Below, one piece after another: positions 23,122 through 46,323 of a stretch of DNA of 64,000 nucleotides. The notes beneath the pieces are model-generated. The model saw nothing but the letters and a program-made list of their open reading frames with translations, made no database searches and had not been told where the DNA came from. The stretch lies in NCBI GenBank assembly GCA_016125225.1, contig WGME01000014.1, forward strand, positions 1-64,000, in the 5' to 3' direction. Both the position numbers and the translations under genes were made by a program. Origin of the DNA: a bacterium. GTDB taxonomy: Bacteria > Planctomycetota > Planctomycetia > Planctomycetales > Planctomycetaceae. Within the stretch, counting starts at the first letter, position 1, and each line of letters starts with the position of its first letter.

Positions 23122-23796
23122 ATGACTTTGGAATTACGAAATCTCCGGAAAAGCTATCGCGAGCCGGGCGGGCGAAGTGTTCCCGTCCTGAACATCTCCG
23201 AATTCCGCATGGGTGACGGAGAACAAGTCGCATTAATCGGGGAAAGTGGCGGCGGCAAAACCACGTTGCTGAACATTATTGCCGGAATCACGACGCCTGA
23301 TGCGGGTGATGTGCAGATCGGTGGCGTGAATGTCGGCCAATTGCCAGAGGCCATCCGTGACCGCTTTCGGGCCGATCGGATTGGATATGTCTTTCAGACG
23401 TTTCATCTGCTACCAGCGTTCACCGCGTTGGAAAATGTGCTGCTGGGAATGAGTTTTTCCGGCAAGAAAGTTGATCGGCAGCGGGCCACGCAATTGTTAG
23501 AGCGCGTCGGTTTAGGGCATCGGCTGACACATCGCCCGGGACAGCTCTCGGTCGGTGAACAGCAGCGAGTGTCTGTGGCCAGAGCTCTGGCCAACTCACC
23601 GGTGTTGTTACTGGCGGATGAACCAACGGCCAACGTCGATCCGGCCAATCAGCAACTGGTGCTCGACCTGCTGCGGGACTCTTGTCGTGAACATCAGGTG
23701 AGTTTGCTGCTGGTGACGCATTCGCTCGATGTCTCTCGGCAGTTCGATCGCGTAGAACGACTCGCGGATTTTAATCGACGGGAAGCCTTGGCATGA
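23122..23796 (+). CDS. ABC transporter ATP-binding protein (LolD/MacB type)
   Basis: 224 residues, complete nucleotide-binding domain: Walker A GESGGGKTTL (about 39-48), Q-loop in YVFQTFHLLPAFTALENV, signature LSVGEQQRVSVARAL, Walker B LLLADEP and H-loop VTHSLD. The sequence groups with ATPases that energise FtsX-like permeases, either lipoprotein release or MacB-type export. Its last codons overlap the start of the permease by 4 bases (ATGA), so the two are translationally coupled and form one transporter. Confidence 0.9.
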   Translation: MTLELRNLRKSYREPGGRSVPVLNISEFRMGDGEQVALIGESGGGKTTLLNIIAGITTPDAGDVQIGGVNVGQLPEAIRDRFRADRIGYVFQTFHLLPAFTALENVLLGMSFSGKKVDRQRATQLLERVGLGHRLTHRPGQLSVGEQQRVSVARALANSPVLLLADEPTANVDPANQQLVLDLLRDSCREHQVSLLLVTHSLDVSRQFDRVERLADFNRREALA

Positions 23797-25139
23797 ATCT
23801 CGCGGTCATCGCGTGGAAGAATCTGCAACAGCGGGCCCTGGCATCGAGTCTCACCGGCATCAGCATTGCCCTGGGGGTGATGTTGATGGTGGCGGTGCTC
23901 GTGATCTCATCGGTTCTCGACGCCACCTTCAGCCAGCGCACCATCGGATACGACCTCATCGTCGGCCCCAAAGGCAGCGATCTGCAACTGGTGCTCAGCA
24001 CGGTTTATCACATCACCCCGCCCATCGAGAACTTGCCATATCGGTTTTACCGCGAGTTTGCGGCCGATCCGCGTATCGCCTCGGCAATTCCTATTGCTAT
24101 TGGTGACACGACCGAAGTGGGTGGCTTTCCTATCGTGGGAACTGTGCCACAGTATTTTCTGGAAGACTATGCCCCCAAGCGGAAATTCCTGATCCGTGGC
24201 AACACCCTGCGGCGCCCGTTTGATGCCCTGATCGGGGCTCATGTGGCCCGGACCAATGGTTGGGACATTGGCTCCACATTCAAGTTAATTCACGGTGGCA
24301 GCGACAGCCATGTCCACGACGAAGAATTCACGGTTGTGGGGGTGCTCCAAGCCACCGGCACACCCAACGACAAATCCGTGTTTGTGCATCTGGACGGCTT
24401 CTATCTCATCCAGGGACATGACAAGCCGTTTGATGAGGCCATCAAACGCGAGCGGGAATTCTTCGGGGAACCGCCGTTGACCGAGGAAGAACTGGCGGCG
24501 GAAGTCGCCCGCCTCAAAAAGAAGTACAGCCATGACCATAGTGGTCACGACCATGGCCATGATCACGATCACATGGAAGAAGTTCCCGACCTGCAGAAAG
24601 AAGTGACTTCGATTCTGGTCAACGCGAAAACGCCCATTGCGGCGAACCTGATCGCGGGGGACCTGAAAAAAGGCTTCAAGGCGATGGGCGTGAATCCGAT
24701 CATTCCCATGCGGCGTTTGATGGTCGATGTGTTGGGCGGCGTCAAGTTGCTGTTGCTCGTCCTCACCGGGTTGATTGTGGCGGTCTCGGGCATCGGCATC
24801 TTCGTCAGCATCTACAATTCAATGTCAGCCCGCCGCCGGGAAATTGCCATCATGCGGGCCTTGGGAGCCCGGCGGAGCACGGTCCTTTCGATCGTCCTTG
24901 CGGAATCGATCATGCTCTGCCTGGGAGGCGGCTTACTGGGGTTGCTGCTGGGGCATGGATTGATTCTCCTTGCCGCACCGATGGTAGAAATCCGCACAGG
25001 ATTGCTGATCAACCCGGCCACGTTCGATCCTTCAGAGCTGATTCTATTCCCGGTCCTGTTGCTGCTGGGATCGCTCGTCGGCCTGCTGCCGGGACTGACT
25101 GCGTACCGCACCGATGTCGCGGATGCTCTCAACGGCTGA
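23793..25139 (+). CDS. FtsX-like ABC permease with His-rich loop
   Basis: 448 residues. A first transmembrane helix (ASSLTGISIALGVMLMVAVLVISSV) is followed by a large periplasmic (MacB-PCD-like) domain of about 240 residues and then three C-terminal helices of the FtsX domain (starting LLLLVLTGLIVAVSGIGIFV), with the conserved MSARRREIAIMRALGARR turn. Just before the second helix lies a charged loop with seven histidines in fourteen residues (HDHSGHDHGHDHDH, about residues 246-259), which looks like a metal-binding segment. Partner of the preceding ATPase. What is moved is unknown; metal, lipoprotein or lipid are all possible. Confidence 0.85.
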   Translation: MNLAVIAWKNLQQRALASSLTGISIALGVMLMVAVLVISSVLDATFSQRTIGYDLIVGPKGSDLQLVLSTVYHITPPIENLPYRFYREFAADPRIASAIPIAIGDTTEVGGFPIVGTVPQYFLEDYAPKRKFLIRGNTLRRPFDALIGAHVARTNGWDIGSTFKLIHGGSDSHVHDEEFTVVGVLQATGTPNDKSVFVHLDGFYLIQGHDKPFDEAIKREREFFGEPPLTEEELAAEVARLKKKYSHDHSGHDHGHDHDHMEEVPDLQKEVTSILVNAKTPIAANLIAGDLKKGFKAMGVNPIIPMRRLMVDVLGGVKLLLLVLTGLIVAVSGIGIFVSIYNSMSARRREIAIMRALGARRSTVLSIVLAESIMLCLGGGLLGLLLGHGLILLAAPMVEIRTGLLINPATFDPSELILFPVLLLLGSLVGLLPGLTAYRTDVADALNG

Positions 25140-25278: not shown

Positions 25279-27420
25279 TTACCGCACGGCTCCGTCATCG
25301 TGCCGGAATTCGTTAAAATGCAGATATTCCCAATGCCTGTACAAGGGGGATTCCGCGACAAGTAACGCGTGTGGTCCCATCGCTTCCAGGCGACCCTGGC
25401 GGAAGACCAGAATGTCATCGGCCCGGCGTAACGTGGCCATACGGCGGGGCAGGAAGAAGACCGTGCGTTCTGCGCAGATCCGGGAATACGTATCATCCAG
25501 CAATTGCTTGGCGTCTTCATCGAGCACGTCAGCGGGTTCTTCGATGATCAACACCGCGGGCTTGCGAATCAGGGCGCGTGCCAGCGACAAACGCAGCCGC
25601 TGCCCGGCATCCAGCAACGATTCCTGTCCCGCCAGTTCCGTCTCGTACCCCTGCGATAGCCGCGAGAGGAAACTGTGAGCCCGAGCCTCTTTGGCGGCAT
25701 CGGTCGCTTGAGACAATGTGATGTCAGTCTGTCCTGCACGGATGTTGTCGAGCACCGTGCCTGGCAGGAAAGGATCATCTGCCGAGACAAAAATCGATTC
25801 GGCCCGCAATGATTCCAAGGTCGACCAGGCAATGTCTTCGCCATCGAACAATACACGGCCCGATTGCGGTTCGATGAATCGTGGCAGCAGATAGGCAAAC
25901 GCACGGGCTTCGAGCGGATCGAGACTGACCAGCGCGTAGATTCGCCCCGCCGCAAGTTTCACATCAACTTTGTCGAGTAACACCTGACCCGTGTTGAGGC
26001 GATAGCTAGCTTCGATGACATGCAGTGTCTTCGATAACGGTTGCAGGAATTTCGCTCCCACGGCCTGGCTGACGCCGGGGAGTTGATCAAGATACCGCCA
26101 GATTTTATGCGATAACGCCGCCATTTCCTGCCGCAACTCGGGAATCACTCGGCAGCGGCGCAGATCGACCAGTCCGGTCCCGAACGCCGCGAGAAAGACG
26201 GCGGCCCCTTGCGGATGGACTTCACCCGAGAGAACTTTTGCCCCGAGGATGAACATCAACAGCGAAGCCAACGCCGCGGCCGCCAGACTGGTTGCGAGGC
26301 GTAACCACAACGGGTCATCTTCCACGCGGTTCTGAATCTGGACCGCATCGAGATAGCGCTTCAACCGCTCCTGAAACAGGTTCTGCTCCTGGATGTCGAT
26401 GTTGTATCCACGGACTAGTCGAGCCGACTGCAGTGACTCGGCCAGGGAATTCAATTCATGTCGAGCCCGATCGGCCGCAAGATCACGCATCCGTCTTGCC
26501 TGGCTTTGGCTGCGCAGTATCAGATAGCCGCCGAGGATCGATAGCAAGAGCCACTGCGTGGCAAGCAGTACTTCGACGCTGAATGCCGCGAGTATCAGAC
26601 AGGCGATTTCCCAAGGGTAACGCAGATTGCGATACAGGTACTCGAACGTCGCTTCCCGAATGCGGTCCACATCGACACGGAAGAGGGTGATCGCATCGGC
26701 AATGCCCTGGCGGTCCACATCTTCCGTGGCCAGACGCATCGACTGGCGATGCAATTGCCGCCGCAACTGCGTAGTGACATCGAGCGCTAAGGCTCGACAA
26801 CGGTTACGAAGCTGGCTGACGCACCAGACCCGCAGCATCCAGGTGAAGACAAAGAAGCCTAGCAACATCAGCAATGCTGAAACATTTTGATGCAGGGCCG
26901 GAAATCTCCGGTAACCCCAGGAAAGCAGTCCGCCCCACCAGGTGTGACGGGCCCGCCAGACGCTAGGGAGGATGCCATGATCGTCGAACTTGCGAATAAC
27001 GACCTGCTCACCTTCCGGAGTCAGCCCGTCATTGTCTGCCTCAGAGTCTGGGGTGACAGTTTCGGTCGCATTGGCCGTAGTCTCGCCTGAGACGGCCGAT
27101 TTCACATCCGTAGTGGCATCGGCGGGAGGTGCCTGAGAGTCATCCGCATCCGCGGCATCTTCGGTTGTTGACGCCAAAGTACCGAAGGTGATGCCGGTGA
27201 CACGTTCGAATTCGGCGATCTGTTCGCCTTCCAGTGTCACGGGCAAAGTTCCCCGTTCAACCAGTAGACCGAGGAGCAATCCGGCCTGTAGTAGCAGGGC
27301 CAGAACCAGAAGGCCATTCATGAAGGCCCAGAGGATCGCCCATCGCCCCCAACCCGAATACCATTCACGACGGGGCAACGTGCGACGAAACGCATCCGGA
27401 GACGCAATGGACACAGGCAT
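25279..27420 (-). CDS. ABC exporter-type protein with degenerate ATPase domain
   Basis: 713 residues: an N-terminal helix, an acidic Ala/Thr-rich soluble insertion (about 75-165), a six-helix ABC exporter membrane domain and a C-terminal nucleotide-binding domain. That domain is heavily altered. Where Walker A (GxxGxGKST) should be, it reads LVSLDPLEARA. The signature is LDAGQ instead of LSGGQ. Walker B is VLIIEEP, with Glu replacing the Mg-binding Asp. The H-loop histidine is Arg (FLPRRMATL). The fold landmarks around these sites (RIYALV, SGRVLFDGEDI, LARAL) remain, and there is no frameshift, so this looks like a selected pseudo-ATPase. It lies 85 bases behind an ABC-2 permease gene on the same strand. 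Confidence 0.8.
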   Translation of the reverse strand: MPVSIASPDAFRRTLPRREWYSGWGRWAILWAFMNGLLVLALLLQAGLLLGLLVERGTLPVTLEGEQIAEFERVTGITFGTLASTTEDAADADDSQAPPADATTDVKSAVSGETTANATETVTPDSEADNDGLTPEGEQVVIRKFDDHGILPSVWRARHTWWGGLLSWGYRRFPALHQNVSALLMLLGFFVFTWMLRVWCVSQLRNRCRALALDVTTQLRRQLHRQSMRLATEDVDRQGIADAITLFRVDVDRIREATFEYLYRNLRYPWEIACLILAAFSVEVLLATQWLLLSILGGYLILRSQSQARRMRDLAADRARHELNSLAESLQSARLVRGYNIDIQEQNLFQERLKRYLDAVQIQNRVEDDPLWLRLATSLAAAALASLLMFILGAKVLSGEVHPQGAAVFLAAFGTGLVDLRRCRVIPELRQEMAALSHKIWRYLDQLPGVSQAVGAKFLQPLSKTLHVIEASYRLNTGQVLLDKVDVKLAAGRIYALVSLDPLEARAFAYLLPRFIEPQSGRVLFDGEDIAWSTLESLRAESIFVSADDPFLPGTVLDNIRAGQTDITLSQATDAAKEARAHSFLSRLSQGYETELAGQESLLDAGQRLRLSLARALIRKPAVLIIEEPADVLDEDAKQLLDDTYSRICAERTVFFLPRRMATLRRADDILVFRQGRLEAMGPHALLVAESPLYRHWEYLHFNEFRHDDGAVR

Positions 27421-28827: not shown

Positions 28828-29805
28828 ATGACTGACTTTCGACTTTCGCTGTTTGTCCTGGCCACAGCCACCTTGCTCGCGGTGAGCTGCCAGAACTCCG
28901 TTCCCCCAGTGGAGCAACCCGCTGAATCTGAGCAGGCAGCAAAAGCGAGCCCCGCTGAATCTTCGAAACCGACTGGTTTGCTAATAACACAGCCCGATCC
29001 AGCCCAATTTCCGCATCTGCATAATCTGTTTCAGGTGACCTCGGAGATCTATTCCGGGGGAGAACCGGAAGACGCCGCAGCCTTTGAGGAGTTGCAGCGT
29101 CTGGGAATCAAGACCATTGTGAGTGTTGACGGCGCCACGCCGAGCGTTGAACTTGCTGCCAAATATGGACTTACATACGTCCACATCCCTATCGGGTACG
29201 ACGGTGTGCCACCGGAAGCCTGTGCCGGCTTGACCCGCGTTGTGAAAGATCAGCCGCAACCGATTTACGTCCACTGCCACCACGGAAAACACCGCGGTCC
29301 TGCCGCTGTAGCGATCGCAGCCATTGCCGCGGGTGCGACTGAGGGCACCGGTGCTTTGCAGATTCTGAAAGTCGCGGGGACCGGGGAGAACTATCGCGGA
29401 CTGTGGCACGATGTTGAGCATTTCGTGCCACTGCCTGCCGATACTCCGCTTCCCGAATTGACGAGTGTTGCCAAAGTCAATTCCCTGGCCGTGGCGATGG
29501 CTCAAATTGGCCGGGCCAACGATCATCTGAAGCTGCTCGCGTCTCATCAGTGGCAAACTTCGGCGGAGCATCCTGATCTGGTACCGGTCGCGGAAGCGAC
29601 TGTGCTAGCGGAAGGATTCCATGAAGCCGTGCGATTGCTCGCTGCTGACCGCCCCGCAGAACTGAAGGGCGAGTTAGAGGCTTCCGAACAATTGGCGAAG
29701 GAACTCCTGAAACGGATCGAAACGGAACCCGACATGGCGGAAGCAGTTTTCAAATCCTTGCAGCAGAGCTGCCAGAGCTGTCATGCCACGTATCGCGATC
29801 AATAA
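28828..29805 (+). CDS. Lipoprotein: CX5R phosphatase-like domain fused to cytochrome c'-like domain
   Basis: 325 residues. The N-terminus is a lipoprotein-type signal ending LLAVSC (Cys21), then an Ala/Glu/Pro linker. Residues 60-200 resemble a dual-specificity/tyrosine phosphatase: SEIYSGGEP, then LGIKTIVSVDG, then the P-loop VHCHHGKHRGP with Cys150 and Arg156 in HCX5R spacing. D125 is a possible general acid. Residues 210-325 are helical and end in CQSCHATYR, the C-terminal CxxCH heme attachment typical of cytochrome c'/c556 four-helix bundles. Both domains would be outside the inner membrane. The combination is unusual; the enzyme substrate and the heme role are unknown. Start ATG at 28828; TTG at 28825 is also in frame. 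Confidence 0.8.
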   Translation: MTDFRLSLFVLATATLLAVSCQNSVPPVEQPAESEQAAKASPAESSKPTGLLITQPDPAQFPHLHNLFQVTSEIYSGGEPEDAAAFEELQRLGIKTIVSVDGATPSVELAAKYGLTYVHIPIGYDGVPPEACAGLTRVVKDQPQPIYVHCHHGKHRGPAAVAIAAIAAGATEGTGALQILKVAGTGENYRGLWHDVEHFVPLPADTPLPELTSVAKVNSLAVAMAQIGRANDHLKLLASHQWQTSAEHPDLVPVAEATVLAEGFHEAVRLLAADRPAELKGELEASEQLAKELLKRIETEPDMAEAVFKSLQQSCQSCHATYRDQ

Positions 29806-34048: not shown

Positions 34049-34322
34049 GCACTGCCTGCAACGCTCTGCGTCACCCATCACCAGTTTGTCACGACTTCCA
34101 GCAGCCCCTGCAACCGGGTGTAGCTCCGCTCGCGGCAACGCGAGCAGACCCATGAGGAGCACGAACAAAAATTCGCTGGCCATGGAGCGACACTACCTCA
34201 TCAACACGGATGGCTATGAACCCGTGTATCATCGGCTGCTCAAGCGAAAGTGTCCAACATTCGACGAACTGAAACCAACTCGCCAGACCTCCCTACAAAC
34301 ACAGAACCGAGGTAATTCAACC

Positions 34323-34379
34323 AGCCCGCAGCGCCAGCAAGGGCGAATGTTAGAATCGCCCTTGCTGGCGCTGCGGGCT
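34323..34379. repeat. REP palindrome, left of the RAYT gene
   Basis: Perfect 23-bp inverted repeat (34323-34345 and 34357-34379) with an 11-base loop; arms begin AGCCCGCAGCGCCAGCAAGG. The similarity extends 3 more bases outwards with one mismatch. The same sequence with one internal base change recurs to the right of the transposase gene. Confidence 0.9.
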
Positions 34380-34399
34380 AGTTACAAAATGTGGTAATC

Positions 34400-34903
34400 A
34401 TGTCGCTGCCGCTTGCCTATCACATCACCTGGACCACCTACGGCACATGGTTGCCGGGTGACAGTCGCGGCTGGGTGCGGGATGAAGCCTTCGGGATTCT
34501 CCCCTCGGAACCCGAAACCCTGTCGGGAGCCCGTCATCGGCTACGTGAAGTTCCCGTCATTCTGGACGAATCTCAGCGAGAAATTGTTCGCAGCACGATC
34601 GAGGAACATTGTCGCATTCGCGATTGGCACATTCATGCGTTGAATGTCCGCACGAACCATATTCACTTGATTGTGACGAGTTCAGTCCAGCCAGAAACCA
34701 TCATGTGTCAGCTGAAGGCGTGGTGCTCACGCCGGTTGTCAGCAGCCGCGGGCGTGACCGAGGTCGTCGCGAAGAAAGCCGGTCGCCGCCGGTGGTTCAC
34801 CGAACATGGCAGCACGAAATGGATCAACGACAATGGCTATCTCGAACAGGCGATCCACTACGTCTTGCACGGACAAGATCACCGCGACCAGCCTTCCAAC
34901 TAG
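34400..34903 (+). CDS. REP-associated tyrosine transposase (RAYT, Y1/IS200-like)
   Basis: 167 residues of the Y1 transposase superfamily: the HUH motif is HIH at 87-89 within VRTNHIHLIV, and the catalytic tyrosine is probably Y154 in EQAIHYVLHGQD. The N-terminal YHITWTTYGTWLPGD is typical of single-copy RAYTs. It is bracketed by two related long palindromes 20 bases before its start and overlapping its stop; the TAG stop is itself part of the right palindrome arm. Such enzymes cut and move REP sequences rather than themselves. GTG at 34391 is an alternative start. Confidence 0.85.
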   Translation: MSLPLAYHITWTTYGTWLPGDSRGWVRDEAFGILPSEPETLSGARHRLREVPVILDESQREIVRSTIEEHCRIRDWHIHALNVRTNHIHLIVTSSVQPETIMCQLKAWCSRRLSAAAGVTEVVAKKAGRRRWFTEHGSTKWINDNGYLEQAIHYVLHGQDHRDQPSN

Positions 34904-34970
34904 CCCGTAGCGCGAGCAAGGGCGATTGTACGCGTGGCATGAACCGCCCTTGCTCGCGCTGCGGGCTAGT
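34899..34970. repeat. REP palindrome, right of the RAYT gene
   Basis: 26-base arms (34899-34924 and 34945-34970), beginning ACTAGCCCGTAGCGCGAGCA and pairing with one G-T mismatch around a 20-base loop. It is the same repeat family as 34323-34379; the main difference is CGAGCAAGG in place of CCAGCAAGG. Confidence 0.9.
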
Positions 34971-35121
34971 GGATGCGACGAACTGCGGATAGTGATCCTC
35001 GAAAATGCGATAGCGCGAGAGGGGCAGTTCCGAGAAAGTTATCGCGGAAGTCACGGAGGATTTATCTAGACGTTCAACGTCACAGTTTGGCTTTCCCACA
35101 CAGACCGTGAGATCGAGTGAA

Positions 35122-45402: not shown

Positions 45403-46323
45403 TCACGCCGGATGGAGTTCCGGTTTCAGCCAGACCCAGCTTTTGCCGAGGCGGCCGCCGTAGTTGCCTGCGGAGATTTTCACGAGGCCGGGCGTCTCAA
45501 TGGCGGCGGTAATGGCGGCTTGTGTGGCTGCGGACACCGTTGCCAGATCGTGTCCGTTCAGAATGATTTCCTGAATTGACTGCACATTCGCGGGGACTTC
45601 GGAGGCGTCCCCCAGTTTTTCCCGCAGTGTCGGACAGAAGGGGTGATTCGTGCTCGCAAACAGAAACTTGTAGCTGCTTCCGGCTTTGGAGCCGCTACCG
45701 GCAATGCCACCCGGAAAGGGCATGATCACGCCGGGGACTTTGGCGGCCGCTTCCACACCCCGTTCGGTCGCTTCAAGAGCTGTATCAACGGTTTCGCCGA
45801 AGAACCACAGGTTGCCTCCCATGATGCCATCTTTGAATCCGAAGCGGCGGTCGATCAGAAACTCGCCCCCCATGATCGGTAGCGACCACAGCTTGCGACC
45901 GTAGCGTTCGCAGCGCTCCTGATAGCCATCGCCAAAGAAGGCGATCTTGCGGCCCAATTTGAAGTATGACTCGGTATCGAGTTGATTGAAGCACGCGGTC
46001 GTTGGACAGGTCAGAACATTCTGACTCAGCCGATGCAGCAGCACTTTTTCGAGCCGTTGTTCCCGATCTTTCCAGAACCGGGGAACATGGAACTGCACGA
46101 TGGCACCGGGGCGGCCATCGGGAGTCGCGACAGCCTCATCACCACCGGGACCGACATAACGATCGACTCCGGCTTCGCAGTCGCAGAAGATGCTGCTCGA
46201 GGCGTGCCCGGTGACGGCATCACAGGCATGTTGCAGCCACTTACGATCCCGTGCCGTGATCAGCACCTCCGCATAAATGCTGCGAAAAGCCTCGGCATAG
46301 GTGTCTTCAACAATGGCAGGCAT
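45403..46323 (-). CDS. ftr: Formylmethanofuran:tetrahydromethanopterin formyltransferase
   Basis: 306 residues, recognisable along its whole length as Ftr/FhcD: EDTYAEAFRSIYAEVLITA at the start, ATPDGRPGAIVQFHV, KIAFFGDGYQE, GGEFLIDRRFG, MPFPGGIAGSGSKAGS and ASTNHPFCPTL. It moves a formyl group between methanofuran and tetrahydromethanopterin, part of a C1 route shared by methanogens, methylotrophs and several planctomycetes. The other pathway subunits (fhcA, B, C, mch, fae) are not in the window, so the gene stands apart. It follows the 5-formyl-THF cyclo-ligase gene on the same strand after 100 bases. Confidence 0.92.
   Translation of the reverse strand: MPAIVEDTYAEAFRSIYAEVLITARDRKWLQHACDAVTGHASSSIFCDCEAGVDRYVGPGGDEAVATPDGRPGAIVQFHVPRFWKDREQRLEKVLLHRLSQNVLTCPTTACFNQLDTESYFKLGRKIAFFGDGYQERCERYGRKLWSLPIMGGEFLIDRRFGFKDGIMGGNLWFFGETVDTALEATERGVEAAAKVPGVIMPFPGGIAGSGSKAGSSYKFLFASTNHPFCPTLREKLGDASEVPANVQSIQEIILNGHDLATVSAATQAAITAAIETPGLVKISAGNYGGRLGKSWVWLKPELHPA

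Follow-up and report, generated by a model that had tools for sequence, protein, structure and literature searches.

The gene at positions 28,828 to 29,805 of the forward strand of the window (the whole 64,000-nucleotide stretch of planctomycete DNA analysed here) encodes a protein of 325 amino acids in which a domain of the protein tyrosine/dual-specificity phosphatase (PTP/DSP) fold is followed by a four-helix domain with a motif for covalent heme attachment. The reading we favour, tentatively and at somewhat below even chances, is that of an exported, probably lipid-anchored, cysteine-dependent PTP-fold enzyme whose Cys150 is coupled to a covalent heme c with His/Met ligation in the same polypeptide. 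Each half is of a known kind; for the pairing, no description was found in a search that covered the titles and abstract openings of open-access papers. If the reading is true, a phosphatase-fold enzyme would here be tied to a cytochrome, and cysteine-based phosphoryl or sulfur chemistry coupled directly to redox outside the inner membrane.

The reading frame is uninterrupted, as the first-pass annotation had it, running from an ATG at 28,828 to a stop codon that ends at 29,805, and the two motifs, HC-HHGKH-R (Cys150, Arg156) and C315-Q-S-C-H319, lie at the positions given there. The protein is laid out as a hydrophobic leader, a linker, the PTP-like domain and a C-terminal region carrying the CQSCH. 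Read by eye, the signal sequence (28,828 to 28,890, + strand) ends in the lipobox-like LLAVS-Cys21, and the protein is on this sequence probably lipid-anchored. A crude scan of the N-termini of 157 family members (one more copy, too short, was left out) found 96 that are lipobox-like, 53 with a hydrophobic stretch only and 8 with neither. The earlier suggestion of export behind a lipid anchor holds. The opposite strand of the gene contains stops in the one frame read, and an antisense open reading frame of 196 amino acids within the gene (28,981 to 29,571) is taken as a shadow ORF.

The PTP/DSP-fold domain (residues ~58 to 208; 28,999 to 29,451, + strand) was assigned from a Pfam profile, a predicted structure and structural matches. 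The profile, PF22785 (Tc-R-P, DSP-PTPase), matches the window protein at 8.2e-7, its 30.0 bits lying above the 27-bit cut-off, and at E<=0.01 matches 74 of 77 sequences, a set made up of the window protein and relatives from 76 of 80 loci, which had themselves been retained from 110 encoding a relative. Built from 77 aligned sequences, the AlphaFold2 model of the whole protein has a mean pLDDT of 90 and a pTM of 0.82; residues 1 to 50 are of low confidence and are followed by an alpha/beta PTP fold and then by helices at 219-238, 253-270, 277-299 and 301-322. This pTM, despite some 50 disordered residues, suggests that the relative placement of the two domains in the model is defined.

The nearest solved structures to the first domain, by Foldseek and VIA-align, are periplasmic TpbA (Foldseek E 4.2e-6; VIA-align to 4r0s_A with Z 16.0, rmsd 3.2 and 154 residues aligned) and DUSP23 (2img, Z 17.1, rmsd 2.4, 140 aligned). 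TpbA (PA3885) is a Pseudomonas aeruginosa dual-specificity tyrosine phosphatase whose target is periplasmic; it shares the PTP fold, the HCX5R loop and an aspartate at the corresponding place (its Asp105, our Asp125), but is only 21% identical to the window protein over the aligned part and has no heme domain. TpbA is reported to be a phosphatase that acts on a periplasmic domain (PMC4409338). The PRL (PTP4A) and PFA-DSP/SIW14 phosphatases are matched both by phmmer and by fold, and PRL resembles the window protein further in having no Ser or Thr after the P-loop Arg (Ala in the phmmer alignment); these are, however, eukaryotic enzymes not known to carry heme. Among PHROGs no match to the window protein was found at E<=0.01.

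The C-terminal heme domain comprises residues 208 to 325 (29,449 to 29,802, + strand). The Pfam family PF01322 (Cytochrom_C_2) matches the window protein at 5e-4 and 21.4 bits, under the cut-off of 26.5, but rises above it in some relatives (27.9 and 28.3 bits in the two cited, L053 and L105) and is found at E<=0.01 in 66 of the 77 sequences. A sequence profile of the domain has its best match in cytochromes c' (5agf, 1.7e-6), and residues 208 to 325 modelled alone give four helices with a pLDDT of 96. By VIA-align the model is closest to 6r6o_A of the Kusta0087/Kusta0088 complex (Z 13.6, rmsd 2.6, 105 residues aligned). Two further matches share a Z of 13.3, cytochrome cb562 (3nmi_A, rmsd 2.3 over 96 residues) and cytochrome c' (6a3l_A, rmsd 3.1 over 106). 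Helical bundles as a class can give Z values near 13, however, and comparable scores go to receptor and other chains, among them several whose names include a b562-type (BRIL) fusion partner. The likeness to the Kuenenia stuttgartiensis complex, which binds heme, may be generic at this Z, and comes with 10% identity to a matched chain of 111 residues that has no phosphatase domain. A Foldseek search with only the heme domain found nothing at E<=0.001, its best match being 6a3l at 0.042. Because Z values of this size can be generic and Foldseek alone gave nothing at that threshold, the assignment leans also on the profile match and on the CxxCH.

That motif, CQSCH at residues 315 to 319 (29,770 to 29,784, + strand), is retained as C315/C318/H319 in all 153 copies that reach it, and Arg323 in 151 of 151. 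The class II cytochromes c (cytochrome c', c-556; PF01322) and the engineered cb562 have the same four-helix bundle with a C-terminal CxxCH..R, the difference being that here the bundle is fused behind a phosphatase fold and scores below the Pfam cut-off in the window protein. The same genome holds cytochrome c assembly genes (two PF01578 matches above cut-off), and heme would presumably be loaded at this motif. The first-pass annotation had proposed a phosphatase-like domain joined to a cytochrome c'-like one, and both proposals came through the profile and structure checks, the second with the reservation of the sub-threshold PF01322 score: in the models the HCX5R loop sits in a PTP fold and the CxxCH in a heme-type four-helix bundle, and neither of the outcomes it had named as damaging, a loop outside that fold or a CxxCH in a non-heme helical region, occurred.

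The kind of heme site is suggested by Met224 (29,497 to 29,499, + strand), which is Met in all 156 copies that reach the position. Residues 11 to 116 of the heme-domain model superpose on residues 1 to 106 of cb562, which, with the pairing within that range inferred, puts model M17 (Met224) on M7 and model H112 (His319) on H102. Met7 and His102 we take to be the heme ligands of b562, and the Met of the new family is placed as in that protein. Since an invariant Met superposes on the axial Met7, we predict from the model a six-coordinate His/Met heme with Met224 as sixth ligand, which would carry electrons and not, like an open cytochrome c', sense NO or CO. An open, five-coordinate heme that binds these gases and switches the phosphatase domain would suit the best profile match, to cytochromes c', and the structural match to 6a3l, and class II cytochromes are reported to bind gases in vitro (PMC5368077); NO might, moreover, displace a distal Met. 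A Met would nevertheless not be expected to be fixed at that place in an open gas sensor, and the predicted blocking of the sixth site makes gas sensing in our view unlikely. The earlier proposal of a gas- or redox-sensing phosphatase survives in its redox-linked part, as something we infer; its gas-sensing part is weakened.

The conservation of the P-loop (H149-C-H-H-G-K-H-R156; 29,272 to 29,295, + strand) had to be recounted, because the string YVHCHHGK was a search pattern and is contained in all 80 loci, so that the first alignments, in which HCHHGK never varies, overstate its conservation, in part as an artefact. The recount used 158 copies (30, 14 and 114 loci, the window included) from the related-genome and phylum-sample searches, 27 to 50% identical to the window protein with a median of 37%, and picked by BLAST or by a profile from the first alignment, which makes the set less biased but not bias-free. 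Six residues are invariant in all 158: Cys150, Gly153, Arg156, Tyr124, Pro121 and Pro80. Nearly so are His149 and Tyr189 (157 each), Asp101 (156), His119 and His155 (155 each) and His152 (150). The loop is otherwise variable, with His (116) or Phe (37) at position 151 and Lys (100) or Arg (37) at 154, and the complete string HCHHGKHR occurs in 78 copies.

The residues that would complete an ordinary phosphatase are kept less strictly. Asp125 (29,200 to 29,202, + strand), which in the alignment with TpbA falls on the general acid Asp105, is present in the window protein itself but in only 96 of the 158 copies, the others having Lys (19), Ser (17), Arg (9), Asn (6) or another residue (11). A quick tree, made with the trait columns left out, calls for at least 17 changes at the position. 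The Ser or Thr that usually, though not universally, follows the P-loop Arg in PTP/DSP enzymes, and is Thr in TpbA, is Gly157 in the window protein; of the 158 copies, 120 have Gly there, 34 have Ser and 4 have Ala. With the acid and the residue after the Arg both variable, the sequences give no assurance that the family catalyses phosphatase reactions with the usual efficiency. An apparent co-variation between D125 and H151, with F151 mostly found beside a residue other than D125, had no support from independent pairs on the tree and was dropped.

A fold that has given up catalysis, and merely binds a phosphorylated or anionic partner to which it docks an electron carrier, would account for a general acid in only 96 of 158 copies and for the lack of Ser or Thr after the Arg in 124. 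Loss of the acid need not mean inactivity, however: in TpbA, where Asp105 is the general acid, the change D105A is reported to cost only 53% of the efficiency (PMC4409338). Another Asp or Glu at about residues 126 to 131 is present, moreover, in 57 of the 62 copies that lack D125, and the nucleophilic Cys and the Arg, which would be expected to drift in a passive scaffold, are retained in all 158. The pseudo-phosphatase scaffold offered by the first-pass annotation as its other reading is weakened on these grounds, even with the acid not conserved, and we hold it to be improbable. The family seems, as far as its sequences tell, to hold on to the cysteine and the heme while treating the general acid as negotiable, which a Cys-based enzyme tied to heme redox would fit better than either a scaffold or an open gas sensor.

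In such an enzyme an anionic group would bind in the P-loop HCHHGKHR, the simplest candidate being a phosphomonoester, and would be attacked by Cys150. The heme domain would pass electrons to and from the cytochrome pool of the periplasm, and would report or set how oxidised the active site is; it might, for example, reduce an oxidised Cys150, or the redox poise might switch the enzyme. As to the chemistry, phosphoryl transfer of the TpbA type is our first choice over sulfur chemistry like that of the Blh DUF442 domain, a point on which sequence cannot tell the two apart.

The sulfur alternative would make the protein an oxidoreductase: Cys150, in its PTP fold, would act on sulfane sulfur or some other sulfur oxyanion (persulfide or thiosulfate chemistry), with the heme c as electron acceptor. 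The DUF442/BLH_phosphatase domain of the Blh sulfurtransferase shares the PTP fold and its catalytic Cys; the family profile, PF04273, matches 42 of the 77 sequences at E<=0.01 (best 1.2e-5), and the DUF442 protein 3gxh_B matches the first domain with a Z of 15.8. In Blh the DUF442 domain is reported to be joined to a dioxygenase, not to a heme bundle, and to have a measured thiosulfate:cyanide sulfurtransferase activity despite its PTP fold (PMC5823870). An unconserved general acid beside an invariant Cys and Arg would also suit sulfur chemistry. So would the near-invariant or invariant D101, H119, Y124, H155 and Y189, for which we know of no need in a plain phosphatase. Yet the family-specific scores are not reached, the window protein having only 15.8 bits against a cut-off of 85.85 for TIGR01244 and 16.1 against 625 for the NCBIfam Blh model NF040641, and TpbA is the nearer relative; we regard the sulfur oxidoreductase as possible, though rather unlikely.

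The two-domain architecture is widespread. With its own genome included, 62 of 99 related genomes have a match at E<=0.001, and in 51 the match is strong (E<=3.4e-36), the alignment reaching the heme motif in 50 of these. Of the 392 genomes in the phylum sample, 137 match at E<=1e-30, 136 with a single copy and one with two, and relatives were found in records of Planctomycetota, Verrucomicrobiota and Hydrogenedentota. A chance co-occurrence of two motifs was considered and rejected, the architecture being conserved over this wide set of genomes. Common as the protein is in the phylum sample, the two plasmid-borne copies found in annotated records carry only the names 'dual specificity protein phosphatase' and 'hypothetical protein'.

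Variants of the architecture are few. Two relatives, L121 and L122, keep the PTP domain but lack the heme domain, which counts against the favoured reading, as does the absence of heme from TpbA. In two genomes of the phylum sample, belonging to one genus group, an apparently exported glutathione peroxidase domain (PF00255, 1.9e-39 and 8.4e-41) stands N-terminal to the PTP-heme part on the same chain; this segment occurs at 2 of the 158 loci and at none of the ORFs of the 110 loci from the related-genome and relative searches, although it could escape notice where a locus has little upstream DNA. At two further loci the PTP-heme part lies in one open frame behind a transporter, a complete Na+/nucleoside transporter in L114 (1415-3772, + strand; PF07662 9.4e-69) and a Na/Ca exchanger in L118 (1982-3973, - strand; PF01699 1.4e-58), the latter with a divergent P-loop, TCETGRDR. 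These may be true fusions or uninterrupted neighbouring frames and, at one copy each, have little weight. Ten relative ORFs (nine of 494 to 978 amino acids, and L105 with 373) contain no extra Pfam domain at E<=1e-5, and the N-terminal extensions of 20 long frames look by eye like out-of-frame read-through, the two glutathione peroxidase cases excepted.

The peroxidase fusions suggest a link to peroxide or thiol redox, though only two of 158 loci and one genus group are concerned, and they count in favour both of the favoured reading and of sulfur chemistry. The nucleoside-transporter frame would suit an enzyme that dephosphorylates nucleotides outside the cell membrane before their uptake, and so goes better with a phosphatase than with a sulfur enzyme. 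The fusions are rare, the peroxidase at 2 of 158 loci and the transporters at one each, and they point different ways. A broader version of the redox idea, in which the family are new heme-coupled oxidoreductases whose CX5R cysteine, on the far side of the inner membrane, acts in sulfur or peroxide/thiol chemistry, passing electrons to or from the His/Met heme c, with the PTP fold repurposed and sometimes joined to a glutathione peroxidase domain, is one we would not expect to prevail but think worth keeping in mind.

The surroundings of the gene offer little guidance as to its role. In the window it is flanked by an ABC-2 permease gene and an SMP-30-like gene, both on the opposite strand, and around the relative loci, with crude gene calling and Pfam assignment of same-strand neighbours, no recurring neighbour was found that names a substrate or partner, a further point against the favoured reading. 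The largest cluster of neighbours among the 80 loci comprises 15 loci, all near the gene and all on the opposite strand, and looks like an antisense shadow ORF; by the same gene calling no other cluster exceeds 7 loci. A Pfam scan of the 86 immediate neighbours that lie on the same strand and have at least 130 amino acids (the 70 opposite-strand neighbours were left out) has Radical_SAM as its commonest family, in 4 of the 86, and these are probably of one lineage, three being 81% identical to the first. Among the 25 families listed of 100, sulfatase and class I cytochrome c each occur in 2 of the 86 neighbours and no sulfur-oxidation family was recognised, which tells against the sulfur alternative. 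The gene appears to stand alone; with so apparently orphan a location, genome context is unlikely to reveal the role easily, and biochemistry is the way in, for which the protein is small enough.

Several other genes of the window deserve mention. The one at 34,391 to 34,903 encodes an IS200-like Y1 transposase (PF01797, 1.4e-6) and has on each side a hairpin with arms of 28 to 29 nucleotides, the two matching across the gene (33 nucleotides, 91% complementary); the whole, at 34,317 to 34,973, is a REP-associated (RAYT-like) arrangement. An ABC half-transporter gene (25,279 to 27,420, - strand) has, by eye, SLDPLEARA in place of the Walker A GxxGxGKS/T and DAGQR for LSGGQ, and its Pfam ABC_tran match begins only at profile position 29, possibly reflecting a degenerate ATPase. 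The MacB/FtsX-type permease encoded at 23,793 to 25,139 (+ strand) carries a His/Asp-rich insert (HDHSGHDHGHDHDH) suggestive of metal binding. At 45,403 to 46,323 (- strand) lies a gene for formylmethanofuran:tetrahydromethanopterin formyltransferase (FTR, PF01913/PF02741), an enzyme of the C1-transfer pathway.
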